A stretch of 64,000 nt of DNA, taken from assembly GCA_009698675.1 (NCBI GenBank), contig WLPT01000001.1, positions 91,909 to 155,908 on the forward strand, read 5' to 3'. This document shows positions 22,290-29,832 of the stretch, in pieces. The notes under the pieces were generated by a model, which was not told the DNA's origin, made no database searches, and worked only from the letters and a program-made list of their open reading frames with translations. This DNA comes from Actinomycetota bacterium. GTDB lineage: Bacteria; Actinomycetota; Actinomycetes; Nanopelagicales; Nanopelagicaceae. Position numbers and translations under genes: made by a program. Numbering within the stretch: the first letter of the stretch is position 1; every line of letters starts with the position of its first letter.

Positions 22290-22781
22290 TTATCTAAAAT
22301 TCGTAAATTGAACTGCGAAATCCCAGCCACCATCTTTAATCATCGCCATAACCTCTTGCAGATCGTCACGACTTTTGGAGACAACGCGAAGCTCATCGCC
22401 TTGGATCTGAGTCTTAATCGACTTAGGACCCTCATCTCGTACAAACTTTGCAATCTTCTTAGCATTCTCTGTTGAGATACCCTCTTTTAACGGTGCAGCG
22501 ATCTTATAAATCTTTCCGCTAAGTTGCGCAGTTCCAGCATCGAGATGCTTTAGGGATACCCCACGTTTAATCATTTTATCTTTGACGACATCAAGGGCGG
22601 CCTTTGCGCGCTCTTCAGTATCGGCTTCAATCAGAATCTTTTCACCCTCTAACTCAATCTTCGATCCAGTATTCTTAAAATCAAAGCGGGTATCTATCTC
22701 TCGAATCGCCTGGTTGATGGCGTTGTCGAGCTCCATACGGTCGATCTTGGAGGTAACGTCAAAACTGCTATCTGCTGCCAC
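22290..22781 (-). CDS. yajQ: YajQ family nucleotide-binding protein
   Basis: The 163-residue protein matches YajQ across its length. It starts with DSSFDVTSKIDRMELDNAI, has FDFKNTGSKIELEGEKI near residue 34, and ends with GGWDFAVQFTNFR. Members are small two-domain proteins; some bind cyclic di-GMP in other bacteria, and the role in actinobacteria is unclear. It is the first gene of a unit with rarD. Confidence 0.92.
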   Translation of the reverse strand: MAADSSFDVTSKIDRMELDNAINQAIREIDTRFDFKNTGSKIELEGEKILIEADTEERAKAALDVVKDKMIKRGVSLKHLDAGTAQLSGKIYKIAAPLKEGISTENAKKIAKFVRDEGPKSIKTQIQGDELRVVSKSRDDLQEVMAMIKDGGWDFAVQFTNFR

Positions 22782-22886: not shown

Positions 22887-22971
22887 GGCGGGTTGCCCGA
22901 GCGGCCAATGGGAGGGGACTGTAAATCCCCCGGCTCTGCCTTCGAAGGTTCAAATCCTTCACCCGCCACCA
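22887..22971 (+). tRNA. tRNA-Tyr (GTA)
   Basis: The acceptor arms GGCGGGT (22887-22893) and ACCCGCC (22961-22967) pair perfectly, followed by discriminator A and an encoded CCA. The anticodon loop reads ACTGTAAAT, giving anticodon GTA. A long variable arm (around CGGCTCTGCC) marks a class II tRNA, which in bacteria fits Tyr. The T arm contains GGTTCAAATCC. It lies between yajQ and the broken dhaK. Confidence 0.96.
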
Positions 22972-23008
22972 AATACCTTCCTAACCCAACCCGAGAGGTA
23001 ATTCCATC

Positions 23009-23689
23009 ATGAAGAAAATCATTAACGATCCGGAGCAGTTTGTTGATGAGGTTCTCAAGGGAATTCTCCTAGCCCACTCGGATCAACTTCGAAGCGCTAA
23101 CTCTGATGCCCGAGTTATTGTCCGTACAGATGCCCCAGGACCACGTGTTGGAATCGTTACTGGTGGAGGCTCAGGTCACCTACCTGTATTTCTAGGCTAT
23201 GTAGGAAAAGGTTTATGTTCTGGAGTTGCCGTAGGAAATGTCTTCTCATCCCCATCATCAGAGCAGATTTTCAATGCATCCGTTGAAGTTAACGGTGGCA
23301 TGGGAGTGCTTTATTTATTTGGAAACTACGGTGGCGATGTTCTTAATTTTGAACTTGCAGCAGATTTATGCGAGCTCGAAGATATTGAGACGGCCACCGT
23401 ACTTGTAAGTGATGATGTAATGAGCGCTCCGCAAGAACGCGCTGATAGTCGTCGCGGTGTAGCTGGAATGGTGTTTGCTTTCAAATGTGCAGGAGCCTCG
23501 GCCGAACGCGGAGACTCACTCGCACAGGTAGCAGAAGTCGCTCGAAAGGTAGTGCGCAATACTAGATCTGCTGGAGTTGGTTTATCTCCAACTATAACCC
23601 CGCATTTATATGGGCTGGGACGGCAACAAATGGCGGATCTGTCGATATTAGTGCATCTGGTTTTGTTACAGTATCTGCTCTTGCAGTAA
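23009..23689 (+). pseudogene. dhaK: Truncated dihydroxyacetone kinase subunit DhaK
   Basis: Residues 1 to about 194 are a clear DhaK: NDPEQFVDEVLKG at the start, GGGSGHLPVFLGYVGKG near 51, GNYGGDVLNFELA near 109, RRGVAGMVFAFKCAGA near 150, and NTRSAGVGLSP near 185. Family members continue for another 130 residues, including the histidine that holds dihydroxyacetone covalently. Here the homology stops and a non-homologous tail runs to a stop at 23689. A GAGAGG ribosome site precedes the ATG. No DhaL or DhaM gene is nearby. I read it as a 3'-deleted gene; an assembly join at about 23590 cannot be excluded. Confidence 0.8.
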
Positions 23690-23934
23690 ATACCGCATCA
23701 GTAGCAACGATAAGTACGACTCAAAATAATTATGCAGAGGGAAGCGCAAATACGGATTCTATACTGTCGCTGACAAACTCCGAAGTTGCAAATATTGTAA
23801 TTGCGCTCATTTCAAACTTTGATTGGACCAACGCACGAATAGCTTATGATCTATTAACTGTTACGCAACAAGGCTTAGTAACTAATTATGCGGAACTCAC
23901 AACACATGAGGCGTTCTTAATTAAGAGCGATTAA
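23593..23934 (+). other. Open frame without start, remnant overlapping dhaK end
   Basis: From about 23593 a different frame (+1 to dhaK) is open for over 100 codons to a TAA at 23932. It has no ATG. Its product is Ser/Thr/Ala/Asn-rich: TNGGSVDISASGFVTVSALA, then TISTTQNNYAEGSANTDS, and a helical-looking end (SNFDWTNARIAYDLLTVTQQ). The composition recalls surface or phage structural proteins, but I do not recognise a family. It fills most of the space between dhaK and the next gene. It could be the 3' part of a gene joined here by deletion or insertion. Confidence 0.45.
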
Positions 23935-24033
23935 GTTGTATTGCAACATAATTTATGATCTGTAAATACAGAATCGAGCGATTCCCAGTGGGGCGTAGAA
24001 GAATTCCAATGCGATTGGGGATAAAGTGTATTC

Positions 24034-25317
24034 GTGGCTAATGCAATCGTTATCGGCGCAGGAGTAATCGGCTGCTCGATCGCGTTAGAACTTGCCCGAG
24101 ATGGGTATGAAGTTATTTGCGTCGATAAGGCGCAAGGGCCAGGGCAAGGCTCAACGAACGCTTCTAGCGCCGTTGTTCGATTTAACTACTCAACTTTTGA
24201 TTCTGTAGCCCTTGCCTGGGAGTCCTTTCACTGCTGGAAAGCCTGGCCCAAGCATTTAGGTCACCTTCAAGAGCGTTACTCAACGATTATCGATGTTGGG
24301 GTCGTCATGTTGGATGCACCTGTTATATCAGGTCAGAGAACTTCACAGTTATTTGATGTAGTTGGAGTTCCCTATGAAGTATGGAGTTCGGACGAGCTGC
24401 AGAAGAATGCTCCTGGAATCGATGTTGGCAGATACTGGCCACCTAAGTCATTAAACGATGATGAATTTTGGGAGGATGCCAAAGAGAGGTTGGGCGCGAT
24501 CTTTACCCCCAATGGTGGATATATCGATGACCCATTACTTGCCACTCTAAATCTGGCACATGCGGGGATTAAAGAGGGCGTTGAATTTCGTTTCAAATCT
24601 AAAGTAACGGCGATCCTTCGCAGTAGCGATGCAGTGAGCGGGGTCGAACTCAATGGCTCTGAAAAAATCTTCGCCGACATAGTTGTAAACGTTGGAGGAC
24701 CTTGGTCCAATCAGATAAATGATCTTGCCGGTGTGGGTCGAGATTTCACAATAAACGTACGGCCCATGCGCCAAGAGGTTCATCAAATAGATACTCCCTT
24801 GAACTTGCTTCCCGGTCCTATTGTCGGAGACTTAGATCTTGGTACCTATATGAGATCTACACCCCATGGTGCAACTCTTATTGGTGGAACAGAACCAGAG
24901 TGCGATCCACTTGAATGGGTAGATAACGTTGATGCGGTTAATCTAAATAGAACTCAAGCGCGATTTGAAGCTCAAGTAACTCGCGCTGCGCGCAGGTTTC
25001 CAGCCTTACAGATTCCTCATACGCCCTCTGGAGTTGCAGGCGTCTATGACGTTGCCTCGGATTGGACACCGATTTATGATCGAACCGATCTTGATGGCTT
25101 TTATGTAGCTATTGGCACAAGCGGAAATCAATTTAAGAACGCACCCATGGTCGGTAAGTTGATGAGCCAACTGATAAACCAGGTGAGTAACGGCAGAGAC
25201 CATGACGCAGAGCCTGTGCGGGTACGGGGTGGCTACACGGGCAATGAAATAAATCTGGCAGCCTTTTCACGCAAGCGCCCATTTAACGCCGAGAATACGG
25301 GAACGGTGATGGGATGA
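24034..25317 (+). CDS. FAD-dependent oxidoreductase, DAO family
   Basis: The 427-residue protein starts with a Rossmann dinucleotide motif (AIVIGAGVIGCSIALELA, residues 4-21) and has the acidic residue at the end of the second strand (ICVDKA). The overall layout fits the D-amino-acid oxidase/glycine oxidase/sarcosine oxidase family, which oxidises C-N bonds of small amines. A late FAD-contact segment YVAIGTSGNQFKNAPMVG lies near residue 350. It starts with GTG at 24034. The substrate cannot be told. It stands alone between the dhaK remnant and a monooxygenase gene. Confidence 0.85.
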   Translation: MANAIVIGAGVIGCSIALELARDGYEVICVDKAQGPGQGSTNASSAVVRFNYSTFDSVALAWESFHCWKAWPKHLGHLQERYSTIIDVGVVMLDAPVISGQRTSQLFDVVGVPYEVWSSDELQKNAPGIDVGRYWPPKSLNDDEFWEDAKERLGAIFTPNGGYIDDPLLATLNLAHAGIKEGVEFRFKSKVTAILRSSDAVSGVELNGSEKIFADIVVNVGGPWSNQINDLAGVGRDFTINVRPMRQEVHQIDTPLNLLPGPIVGDLDLGTYMRSTPHGATLIGGTEPECDPLEWVDNVDAVNLNRTQARFEAQVTRAARRFPALQIPHTPSGVAGVYDVASDWTPIYDRTDLDGFYVAIGTSGNQFKNAPMVGKLMSQLINQVSNGRDHDAEPVRVRGGYTGNEINLAAFSRKRPFNAENTGTVMG

Positions 25318-25449
25318 GGCCGATAGCCATAAAGATGGAGCGCCGAATGGATACCCATCGCGCTTGATGGCTAAGAATTTCACCAATCTTTTCTAACCTC
25401 ACTATCTAATTGGCTCAAAGTTAATTGGAGAGAAACGGGGTTTTATCGG

Positions 25450-26922
25450 ATGAAAATCGGAATCGTCGGTGCCGGCTTTGCTGGACTTTCTTCGGCAAAG
25501 GTTTTAACTGAGTTTGGACATGATGTTCATATCTTTGAAAAAGATACAGAGGTGGGTGGAGTATGGACAACTTCTCGACGCTATCCTGGACTTGGAACTC
25601 AAAACGTGCGCAGTACATATGCACTCAGTGATTATCCATATCCAAAGGGAACGCCAGAGTGGCCTAGTGGAGAACAAGTACAGCAGTACATGGAAGGTTA
25701 TGCGAAAAAGTTTAATATTTTAAATAAGATCTCTTTCAGTACTGAAGTAAAAATCGCAAAGCAAAACAGCGATGATACGTGGAGTGTCGAGACTGTTACA
25801 AACGGCAAGAGCACAACCCATAATTTTGACTTTTTTATTGTGGCTAATGGAATCTTTTGTGATCCATTTGTGCCCGATTGGAAGGGTGCCGATGCTTTCA
25901 AAGCTGCCGGCGGCAAGATTTTACACACCGTTGATTTCCATAATTTAGAGGATATTCGCAATAAAAACTGCGTATTCATTGGTTACGGTAAATCCTCATG
26001 TGATGCGGCTAATGCAACCGTTGGAGTTGCAAAGAAGACAACTATTGTTGCCAGGCATTTGATTTGGAAAGTGCCAAAGCGCCTTAACAATGTTCTCAAT
26101 TACAAGATGCTTCTGCTCACACGTATGGGTGAGGCGCTCTTTCCTTACATTGAGCTAAAGGGAACTGAGGCTTTTCTACACGGTAAAGGTAAGAAAGTCA
26201 GCGCAGGAATGCTCGGAAGTGTTCAGGGAGTTATCGAGAAGCAGTTCAAGCTCGAAAAGCTTGGGCTACATCCAAAGACTGGCCTAGATACAATCGTTCG
26301 AAGCACAGTCTCACTTGCAACCGATGGATTCTTCAAGAATATTAAAGAGGGAAAACTCTCGGTTATTCGCGATACTGAAATCGCAAGCATGTCTGCCGGA
26401 AAGGTCACACTCTCTGATGGCCAGGTGCTCGATGCAGATTATGTAATCTGTGGAACTGGCTTCCATCAACGTGTGCCATTCCTTGAGGATTCGGTCATGA
26501 AGGCAATTACTGACGAGCGTGGTAATTTCCGCCTCTATCGCCAGCTAATCCCTCTCGATGTGAAGAATATCGCCTTCAACGGCTATAACTCCTCCTTCTT
26601 CTCACAGTTAAACGCTGAAATGGGCGCGATATGGATCGCTGCCTATATTGCCAAGGCGATTAACTTGCCATCAAAGCCTGCGATGTTGGCCCACATTGAT
26701 AAGCGTTTGGCGTGGATGGAAAAGCGCACAGAGAATAAACATGCACGTGGAACAAATATCATTCCATTCTCTGTGCACAATATCGATGAACTCTTGAGTG
26801 ATCTAGAGTTACAGATTCCAGCACCAGTCAGATTCAATCAATGGCTACTCCCAATCAATCCAAAGAGTTATGCCAAAGTTGGATCAAAGCTTCGTGCACG
26901 ATTGGCTAAAGCAGGAAAGTAA
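25450..26922 (+). CDS. Flavin-containing monooxygenase-like protein
   Basis: The 490-residue protein has two dinucleotide-binding motifs: GAGFAGLSSAKVL near residue 7 for FAD and FIGYGKSSCDAA near 176 for NADPH. Between them lies ILHTVDFHN, in the place of the FMO/Baeyer-Villiger fingerprint. The C-terminal CGTGFHQRVPFLED near 335 is the usual ATG-like strand. Such enzymes oxygenate heteroatoms or ketones. The gene ends at a strong bidirectional terminator shared with a convergent SDR gene. The substrate is unknown. Confidence 0.83.
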   Translation: MKIGIVGAGFAGLSSAKVLTEFGHDVHIFEKDTEVGGVWTTSRRYPGLGTQNVRSTYALSDYPYPKGTPEWPSGEQVQQYMEGYAKKFNILNKISFSTEVKIAKQNSDDTWSVETVTNGKSTTHNFDFFIVANGIFCDPFVPDWKGADAFKAAGGKILHTVDFHNLEDIRNKNCVFIGYGKSSCDAANATVGVAKKTTIVARHLIWKVPKRLNNVLNYKMLLLTRMGEALFPYIELKGTEAFLHGKGKKVSAGMLGSVQGVIEKQFKLEKLGLHPKTGLDTIVRSTVSLATDGFFKNIKEGKLSVIRDTEIASMSAGKVTLSDGQVLDADYVICGTGFHQRVPFLEDSVMKAITDERGNFRLYRQLIPLDVKNIAFNGYNSSFFSQLNAEMGAIWIAAYIAKAINLPSKPAMLAHIDKRLAWMEKRTENKHARGTNIIPFSVHNIDELLSDLELQIPAPVRFNQWLLPINPKSYAKVGSKLRARLAKAGK

Positions 26923-26929
26923 TCTGATT

Positions 26930-26966
26930 AAAAATAGCCCTGGCCATTGCGGCCAGGGCTATTTTT
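26930..26966. terminator. Bidirectional intrinsic terminator
   Basis: A perfect 16-bp stem, AAAAATAGCCCTGGCC paired with GGCCAGGGCTATTTTT, closes a 5-base loop (ATTGC). It ends in a T run on both strands. It lies between the convergent monooxygenase (ends 26922) and SDR (ends 26976) genes and should terminate both. Confidence 0.92.
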
Positions 26967-26975
26967 AATGAGTTA

Positions 26976-27770
26976 TTAAGCTTCCAGAAGTGGAATTGCG
27001 GGGACTGCCTGTTCTGGTCCCATCGCTGAGTAACCGCCATCAGCGGCCCAATCGGCACCTGTAACGATTGATGCTTTGTCACTGGCCAAAAATGAGATTA
27101 CATGTGCAACCTCTTCTGGGTCTCCAACACGTTTAGTTAAGTGAAACGGTGCGGCAACGCGATCAGTCTTGGCACGATCACCCTTTGACAGCATGTCCAT
27201 AATTGCCGACCACGTCCATCCAGGAGATACCGAGTTCACTCTGATCTTATCGCCGGCGTAATCCATTGCCATGTTTCGAGTCAATTGCACTAGAGCTGCC
27301 TTACTTACTGGATAAATCCATCGTCCAGTTTGCGCAACATTGGAAGAGATACTTGTTAAGTTAATAATCGATCCTCCACCTTGCTTTTTCATATGAGGTC
27401 GTACTGCCGCACCTAGCATTGCCGCACTTGAGATATTTACATTTAATGTATTGCTCCATTGGGCACGAGTGCTATCTGCCCCAGCATCATCATATGAGCA
27501 TGCAAGATTCACGAGGATATCGATACGCCCCCATGCAGAGATCGCGGCATCAATCATTTTCTCAATGGCTGAGTCATCGGTGATATCACCGTGAAAGAAA
27601 ATGGCGTCAGCTCCACAGGCTTTAGCTGCAGCAGCTCCACTTTCGGCGTTGATCTCAACGATTAAAACCTTGGCTCCATCGGCAATGAGCGTTTTCGCAA
27701 CTGCCGTTCCAAACAACGTTCCGCCGCCAGTGATGATTGCGGTCTTGCCCTGTAATAACTGCGAACTCAT
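26976..27770 (-). CDS. Short-chain dehydrogenase/reductase
   Basis: The 264-residue SDR shows an N-terminal nucleotide site (TAIITGGGTLFGTAVAKTL), NLACSY in place of the NNAG motif near residue 88, a catalytic Ser in NLTSISS near 138, and YPVSK with the catalytic Tyr and Lys near 155. The C-terminus has the usual SFLASDKASIVTGADWAADGG. The glycine motif is irregular (TGGGTLFG). The divergent AraC gene suggests control by that regulator. The substrate is unknown. Confidence 0.85.
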   Translation of the reverse strand: MSSQLLQGKTAIITGGGTLFGTAVAKTLIADGAKVLIVEINAESGAAAAKACGADAIFFHGDITDDSAIEKMIDAAISAWGRIDILVNLACSYDDAGADSTRAQWSNTLNVNISSAAMLGAAVRPHMKKQGGGSIINLTSISSNVAQTGRWIYPVSKAALVQLTRNMAMDYAGDKIRVNSVSPGWTWSAIMDMLSKGDRAKTDRVAAPFHLTKRVGDPEEVAHVISFLASDKASIVTGADWAADGGYSAMGPEQAVPAIPLLEA

Positions 27771-27914
27771 ACCTCTCCCTAAAACTCGTAAACCCCGACC
27801 TTATTACGAAAAAACTCATATTTATGTCCCACCCACGCATGGGCTATCCGCAGAACGCAAATAAAGCCTCAAAAATCTCTTGACAGCGTGCTCGTCCAAA
27901 AGGAACATACTCGC

Positions 27915-28892
27915 ATGGCGCCAGTGGCAGAACTGCTAAAAGATCACAATCTTTTCAGGACGACACATCTAGATGAGGCACGCAGTGAAGTGGCTCGAGT
28001 CTTTTGTCCTCATGCACTGACAACGGTTGGACGAGAAGAGAAACTTAATACAGTCCATAACCGAATTACCTTGGGTGATGTAACTCTGAACTATCTCGAC
28101 TATGGCGCAGAGGTCAGAATTACTCCGGGAGAGTTGAACTCGTTCTATCTGATTCAAATCCCTTTGGGCGGAAGCGCCGATATTACGTGTGGAAAAGAGA
28201 TGCTTCACTCCACAATAAATATGGCATCGATTCCGAATCCACTGGAAAAGCTGGATATGGTTTGGCACTCGGGTAATCCCCAGTTGATGGTCTACATAAA
28301 TCGAACGACCCTTGAAAAACGCCTCGAGGATTTAATAGGTCGAGAGATACATGTGCCGGTTCGCTTTGATTTGGGAATGGATTTAACAACTCAGAAGGCA
28401 AAGAGTTGGCAAAGACTGGTCGACACATTGGTATCGGATGTGGACCGGGGTGGATTAACAATGCATACAGGGATTAGAAATCAATTTCAGGATTTAATTA
28501 TTACTGGTCTGCTCTTATCTCAAAGGCATAATTACAGTGAATCAATTGGTACTTCTGTCGAACCTGCCGCACCTCGTTCAGTTCGATTGGCGATGGCGGC
28601 CTGTGAATCCAACCCTCAAGAGCCGCTAACCGTCACCGATATGGCGCGAATAGCTGGCGTTAGCATTCGATCTCTCCAAGATGGTTTCAAAAAATACGTT
28701 GGGATGAGTCCAACAGATTATCTGCGCAATGTCCGCTTGAGCCGAGTACGTGAAGAGTTGCTTAGTGGACGTGGCTTTGAGTCCTCGATCGCAGAGGTCG
28801 CCTTTGCCTATGGATTTACTCATCTTGGACGGTTTGCTAAGACTTATCACGAACGATTTGGCGAGCTACCCTCTGAAACAAATAGGAAATAA
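27915..28892 (+). CDS. AraC-family transcriptional regulator
   Basis: The 325-residue protein has an N-terminal cupin-like sensing half of the AraC-binding-like type and a C-terminal pair of helix-turn-helix units. The DNA-binding part starts near residue 225: VTDMARIAGVSIRSLQDGFK, then KYVGMSPTDYLRNVRL, then IAEVAFAYGFTHLGRFAKTY. I chose ATG 27915, preceded by AAAAGGA; a GTG at 27888 would add nine residues. It is divergent from the SDR gene and ends directly against the PaaX-type gene, tail to tail. Members usually activate neighbouring catabolic genes. Confidence 0.88.
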   Translation: MAPVAELLKDHNLFRTTHLDEARSEVARVFCPHALTTVGREEKLNTVHNRITLGDVTLNYLDYGAEVRITPGELNSFYLIQIPLGGSADITCGKEMLHSTINMASIPNPLEKLDMVWHSGNPQLMVYINRTTLEKRLEDLIGREIHVPVRFDLGMDLTTQKAKSWQRLVDTLVSDVDRGGLTMHTGIRNQFQDLIITGLLLSQRHNYSESIGTSVEPAAPRSVRLAMAACESNPQEPLTVTDMARIAGVSIRSLQDGFKKYVGMSPTDYLRNVRLSRVREELLSGRGFESSIAEVAFAYGFTHLGRFAKTYHERFGELPSETNRK

Positions 28893-29747
28893 TTATTTCT
28901 TAGCGATATTAAAAACAAAATTTAATGCAGGTCCGGCCAACTTATCGTGCACTTTGAAGAAATTCTCAGTGGCTTGATAACCAGCCCATGATTTAGGCAA
29001 GAACTCTTCTGGCAGACCTGGATCAAAATACGGTGCATGCCGCCAATTAGTCAGAATCGTCGTGTAATCACGAAAGGCTTTAGCCGAGTCGGTAACGATA
29101 TTCCTCGTCGACCAGTATTTAATAACGGGCTTGGCAGTTCGGCTAAAGGAGTTATAGACCTCTTGAATACCATCTAAATCCCACCACTCTTGGACTACTG
29201 AAGGAGTTGGAGTGAATGCGATGTGTTCGGCTGAGAATATATTCATGTACTTCTCAACTTTGAGGGACTTAGCCAATGAGATGGCATCTGAACTGAGTTG
29301 GCGTGGGGCGATCCACAAGCCTCCAGTTACTTGGGCAAAGCCAATGCGAGTTAGGCGTGATCGCAGTTGATAACGAAGTGCTCGCATCTTTTCAGGGATT
29401 GAGAAGGCAACCAAAATCCATCCTTCATTAGTAGGGGAGTCACGACGTTGTAGAACTCGCGCATCCCCTTGGTCAAATGATTTGCGCATTTCAGGACTTA
29501 TGGCATAACCGATAACGCCATTTTGTTTCTTAGAGATTAATATTCCTCGGCGTTTAAATCGGGCAAGTGCACTACGGGCGGCATCTTCGGCCACATCTAA
29601 TTCGGTACACAGTTGGATGATTGTGTTTGCTGAAAACCAACCGCCGTGAGAGCGGCTGTAGGCGGCAAAAATAGTGATTATCAGTGACTGCGGGCGGGCT
29701 GATCTATCAACTAGATCGCGGGCCTCGCCACTGAAGATACTATCCAT
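28893..29747 (-). CDS. PaaX-family transcriptional regulator
   Basis: The 284-residue protein has the PaaX layout. An N-terminal winged helix-turn-helix (ARPQSLIITIFAAYSRSHGG, then ARSALARFKRRGIL near residue 60) is followed by a Cas2-like middle domain (PTNEGWILVAFSIPEK near 104; GFAQVTGGLWIAP near 135) and a helical C-terminal domain. PaaX binds phenylacetyl-CoA; relatives sense other aryl-CoA thioesters. It is divergent from a thioesterase gene. A role in controlling aromatic-CoA genes nearby is an inference. Confidence 0.85.
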   Translation of the reverse strand: MDSIFSGEARDLVDRSARPQSLIITIFAAYSRSHGGWFSANTIIQLCTELDVAEDAARSALARFKRRGILISKKQNGVIGYAISPEMRKSFDQGDARVLQRRDSPTNEGWILVAFSIPEKMRALRYQLRSRLTRIGFAQVTGGLWIAPRQLSSDAISLAKSLKVEKYMNIFSAEHIAFTPTPSVVQEWWDLDGIQEVYNSFSRTAKPVIKYWSTRNIVTDSAKAFRDYTTILTNWRHAPYFDPGLPEEFLPKSWAGYQATENFFKVHDKLAGPALNFVFNIAKK

Positions 29748-29832
29748 GTGGGAATGCTAGTGTGCGGGAGTGTAAATGCAAGGTATTACAAGCATTAACT
29801 TCTCATTACCAGATATTAATATGGAGGAATCA

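Follow-up and report, generated by a model that had tools for sequence, protein, structure and literature searches.

A truncated dhaK joined to the end of a repeat-protein gene, probably by deletion, in a tRNA-bordered flexible island of a small-genome actinobacterium

Introduction

Just downstream of a tRNA-Tyr gene in a small-genome actinobacterium, an open reading frame that begins as dhaK loses its homology part-way and gives over to a second frame that has no start. How did two unrelated coding pieces come to be joined at this spot, and could either of them still work? A sequence-only reading of the locus had offered two answers; either a mobile fragment entered dhaK, or a deletion fused two genes. 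The evidence presented here argues for the second, and the locus looks like an ordinary pseudogene fusion, a scar of DNA loss at a tRNA-bordered island, rather than a new gene. The stretch analysed (hereafter the window) is 64,000 bases long and corresponds to C1:91909-155908 of an assembly of 1,314,953 bases in 18 contigs (completeness 78.4%, contamination 0.18%). Genomes of this genus are about 1.3 Mb in size, with a GC content of about 0.47.

A dhaK gene that stops early

The reading frame that starts at 23009 on the plus strand is 226 codons long and begins 37 bases past the tRNA-Tyr. Its start codon is intact, and a ribosome-site-like word (GAGAGG) lies within these 37 bases. Pfam, NCBIfam and solved-chain matches all identify its first part (23009-23602) as DhaK residues 1-198 of about 330. 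Pfam PF02733 (Dak1) aligns profile positions 1-183 of 313 to residues 17-199 of the frame (E = 2.7e-64), and among solved DhaK chains the best-matching ones cover residues 1-198. The NCBIfam model TIGR02363 (dhaK1) matches over residues 1-199 of 329, but at 212.6 bits, against a curated cut-off of 406.25, the hit falls below the full-length threshold. The gene is therefore broken, as had been proposed. Its homology had been placed as ending near codon 194; it does end early, but runs surely to residue 196 and probably to 198.

Conservation was scored on an alignment of 76 DhaK relatives, with columns at least 95% invariant counted as near-invariant. All 37 such columns within residues 1-194 are kept, while four of the five between residues 195 and 226 (201, 212, 214 and 215) are lost and only 198 is kept, so dhaK has been cut, with the remaining part hardly decayed. 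The conserved region round the substrate-binding histidine, which we take to be His218 of E. coli DhaK, lies beyond the break, and the suggested loss of this residue is borne out. The frame does carry an H at residue 216; since the near-invariant G212, G214 and I215 that accompany the histidine in the family are missing beside it, this is an accident of the out-of-frame stretch. That stretch (23603-23689, plus strand) consists of 28 codons without homology and a stop.

The rest of the kinase was not found in the assembly. The sole Dak1 match is the one to profile positions 1-183, with no second Dak1 piece elsewhere, and no Dak2 (DhaL) gene was found either. A comparison with relatives carrying dhaKL had been recommended; Dak2 is present in all 15 dhaK-bearing genomes chosen, and in the seven that belong to this genus the two genes are no more than about 1.1 kb apart. 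As the assembly is 78% complete, the absence of these parts from it is no proof. Elsewhere in the genus, the dhaK of one genome (G034:C25) contains a single in-frame TGA, and may be a second broken copy or a sequence error.

The stub probably came from outside the genus, judging by sequence comparison. Its closest known relatives are from Cryobacterium (71% identity) and Caballeronia (70%), whereas identity is at most 54% to the DhaK of any of the 19 other genomes in the genus that carry one. A tree of 77 rows places the stub within a supported set of 26 rows (100/99) made up of other actinobacteria, one Dormiibacterota and Burkholderiales, with none of the 14 genus rows used; this tree drew on 14 of the 19 available genus rows, several of them long branches, and had no Cryobacterium row. 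The idea that the genus's own dhaK was broken in place was rejected as to origin on these identities and the tree. As the GC3 of the stub (0.33) is close to that of a core gene of the same genome (0.352), there is no sign in GC3 of a very recent import from a GC-rich donor; the GC3 of the second piece is 0.296.

A second frame from the 3' end of a repeat-protein gene

The second frame is open for 122 codons, from a stop at 23563-23565 to 23934, and no ORF of at least 50 codons with an ATG, GTG or TTG start is listed in it. The earlier description of a start-less frame of over 100 codons therefore stands, except that the frame is -1 (= +2) relative to dhaK and not +1. Its homologous part (23584-23934, plus strand) comprises 117 codons including the stop, hereafter the tail.

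The tail is more than a chance translation, because homologous stretches exist in large repeat proteins of the genus. At E 0.001 it matches 11 of 135 genus genomes, its own included, and hence 10 of the 134 others. The matches are to repeats of large proteins, in open frames of up to 3608 codons (one is a fragment of 206 codons). The best match (E = 7.6e-18, 42% identity over residues 1-109 of 114) lies in genome G064 (L146:7464-10781); this protein has 1105 residues, a choice-of-anchor L domain, fn3 and a PKD match just under the cut-off. The second piece, rightly called part of an unrelated gene, is thus the 3' remnant of a large, surface-type repeat-protein gene of the genus. The family includes giant members, with open frames of 3608 codons in G169 (L235) and 3133 codons in G013 (L147).

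A search against both viral and surface proteins had been advised, and only the surface-type repeat proteins of the genus gave relatives. The tail had no match in phage records, viral contigs or plasmids, and its best hits in PHROGs (E = 0.21) and Pfam (E = 0.092) were taken as chance. There is no second copy of it in the assembly at E 0.001; at E 10 a single 24% match appears (E = 0.12).

The two homologies overlap at the join

The second piece had been thought to begin at 23593. Its homology in fact begins at 23584, where the window reads ISNYNPAFIWAGT, so that the two homologies overlap. The overlap (23584-23602, plus strand) is well supported over 13 bases (23584-23596) and may extend to 19, and we presume it to be the site of recombination. 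It is correct in both frames, encoding LSPTI.P of DhaK in one and ISNYNP of the surface repeat in the other. On the DhaK side, the window has GVGLSPTITP; of the six close relatives compared, five have GVGLSPTILP and one GVGLTPTILP. On the repeat side, it has ISNYNPAFIW, for which genus repeats show, for example, ISNYDAAYTW or ITNYDPAYTW; in longer excerpts they read ISNYDAAYTWAGT, ITNYDPAYTWT and ISNFDSAYNWT.

We gauged how often such readings arise by chance in six-frame translations of 103.8 kb of the genome's own DNA (207,592 positions). There were 43 occurrences of the repeat pattern [IV][STGQKND]N[YFWH] and 40 of the DhaK pattern with its final proline. Because both patterns are rare, a blunt join would be unlikely to produce either reading of the overlap by chance. 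An overlap readable in two ways is exactly what a microhomology-mediated deletion or crossover leaves. The shared word by itself is less telling. When unrelated pairs of the genome's own sequence were drawn at random, a common 13-base word was found in 3/47, 6/48 and 12/45 of them (1 kb against 3, 6 and 10 kb, respectively). Since such matches are not rare in unrelated pairs, and amplification chimeras use words of this kind, the word cannot single out a biological deletion over a chimera. Within 22972-24033 the short repeats are weak pairs only. The join had no matches in viral contigs.

A variable island beside tRNA-Tyr

The tRNA-Tyr (GTA) was located by ARAGORN at 22887-22971 on the plus strand. 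On its core side lies a DUF520 gene (22290-22781, minus strand; Pfam PF04461, E = 8e-56), presumably of the YajQ type and present in 59 of 71 genus genomes. DNA alignments to the loci of nine relatives stop exactly at 22971, the final base of the tRNA; two further alignments stop at 22970 and 22939, where those relatives' contigs end. Beyond this border, gene content varies. The first ORF of at least 100 codons falls into 13 types among 22 flanks (21 relatives and the window), although in 9 of the 21 relatives the first gene is one of two recurrent neighbours, a protein of about 161 residues or an ABC solute-binding protein. Conservation thus stops at the 3' end of a tRNA beyond which content varies, and the tRNA-Tyr does mark a hot spot where gene content changes, as had been supposed.

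In the genome studied here, that transporter set (SBP_bac_3) returns only at about C1:159990, and the variable island accordingly spans 22972-64000 and continues past the window to that point, about 45 kb in all. It carries oxidoreductases, ABC transporters and a methylmalonyl-CoA mutase. Several relatives go from tRNA-Tyr straight to the conserved transporter genes, where this genome has its metabolic island of about 45 kb. The next gene after the fusion is an intact FAD-dependent oxidoreductase of the DAO type (24034-25317, plus strand), which is syntenic with one relative, G010. This relative shares 24035-29783 with the window at 77%, but other genes, about 18 kb of them, separate its tRNA-Tyr from the start of the shared stretch. 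Contigs also tend to break here; the DUF520 gene lies on the plus strand of 35 contigs, and nine of these begin within 250 bases of it, i.e. at the tRNA, a pattern to be expected at a site that varies between strains of one population.

A scan with 25-base pieces of the tRNA end, allowing up to three mismatches, found no direct repeat in the island and one weak minus-strand match beyond it. In two relatives, tRNA-Tyr-like pieces lie downstream of an intact tRNA-Tyr, just past it in G104 (L221) and at 7637-7681 of L162 in G060. This is what would be expected of old integration borders, and it marks the site as an attachment site in those relatives. Another truncated gene occurs in the tRNA-Tyr island of G010 (G010:C207:15345-15857, on L153), where an ORF of 170 codons starts out as the conserved ABC solute-binding protein, which elsewhere has 281 codons, but is cut short and followed by an unrelated ORF.

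How the join may have arisen

We consider it probable that the locus is a dead gene fusion, and that a deletion produced it at a short word shared between dhaK and a repeat-protein gene in a tRNA-bordered flexible island. A foreign-type dhaK would have stood directly after tRNA-Tyr; a large repeat-protein gene would have followed on that strand, some distance downstream. Both would have contained one short word (13, at most about 19 bases), though in different reading frames, and recombination or slippage at this word would have removed everything between. In this way dhaK would have lost its partner genes and its last 40% or so, and the repeat-protein gene would have been reduced to its final 116 or so codons. 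The product would be out of frame, so that dhaK runs on through 28 meaningless codons to a stop and the surface tail is left without a start. Of the two answers offered at the outset, this is the one that the homologies, their overlap and the frames support. As no genome was found with both genes whole and side by side in this island, their original presence here in this order is something we infer. The loss was presumably a single event, and neither piece is likely to work now.

The main rival, in our view unlikely, is that the join is an artefact, either a chimera from single-cell whole-genome amplification or an assembly join between strains, with the genes whole or elsewhere in the cell or derived from two cells. 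The site is just where strains differ and contigs break, as the contig starts at the tRNA illustrate, but short-read assemblers usually require longer words than an overlap of 13-19 bases would supply. The missing halves are also absent from the other contigs of the bin, although the bin is incomplete. Amplification chimeras, as described in PMC1855051, are commonly primed by matches of 2 to 21 bases, into which range the overlap fits, yet only 69 of the 475 chimeras recorded there joined segments in direct orientation.

A second rival, which we regard as distinctly unlikely, is an illegitimate crossover, in which an incoming cassette ending in dhaK recombined at the shared word with a resident repeat-protein gene and replaced the content upstream. 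The resulting scar would look identical to that of a deletion. Both the extra-generic affinities of the stub and the unrelated content that G010, the sole syntenic relative, holds between tRNA-Tyr and the shared oxidoreductase would suit such an exchange. Against it, no intact donor or recipient was seen, and the GC3 of the stub, near that of both the core gene and the tail, gives no hint of a very recent arrival from a GC-rich source.

It is very improbable that the locus makes a product that is used, whether a truncated DhaK or a frameshifted DhaK-repeat hybrid. The intact start and ribosome-site-like word, the full retention of near-invariant residues before the break and the open second frame through the join are all compatible with one. 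However, the near-invariant columns after residue 194 are mostly gone, Dak2 is missing from the assembly, and no DhaK-repeat hybrid was seen in any other genome. A hybrid made by frameshifting was set aside, as the dhaK frame showed no -1 slippery heptamer around 23563-23688. We accordingly give little credence to a DhaK kept as an orphan small-molecule-binding domain, or to a newborn chimeric gene at a tRNA hot spot in which a frameshift joins it to the repeat domain. Finally, the entry of a mobile element into dhaK was rejected, because a simple insertion would leave the rest of dhaK behind the second piece, and it was found neither there nor elsewhere in the assembly, while the second piece is known from chromosomes of the genus and has no phage, viral-contig, PHROG or plasmid relatives.

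The preferred reading, a deletion fusion, would offer a base-level picture of DNA loss in the flexible island of a small-genome actinobacterium, with unrelated genes joined at a match of 13-19 bases beside a tRNA. Annotators are cautioned against taking the 226-codon ORF for a dihydroxyacetone kinase subunit, or the second frame for an orphan gene. The fusion leaves existing knowledge of DhaK and of surface proteins as it was.

Comparison with known systems

Compared with DhaK as modelled by TIGR02363 and PF02733, the stub aligns unbroken over residues 1-198 but is without the last 40% or so, including the histidine region, and has no accompanying Dak2 gene in the assembly. The tail likewise aligns with the large repeat proteins of the genus (e.g. 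that of G064), from the motif ISNY..A..W through the next segment to ..LTTHE, but the window has only the last 116 or so codons, with no start, export signal or upstream domains.

The setting of the fusion has a parallel in the flexible islands of marine 'Ca. Actinomarinales', for which tRNA-linked cassette swapping has been described (PMC7771536). As presented there, these islands differ in that the window's island adjoins tRNA-Tyr, holds mostly metabolic and transport genes rather than envelope-sugar genes, and showed no direct repeat of the tRNA end inside it. The arrangement is nonetheless alike, with variable cassettes running from the 3' end of a tRNA and conserved genes resuming beyond.
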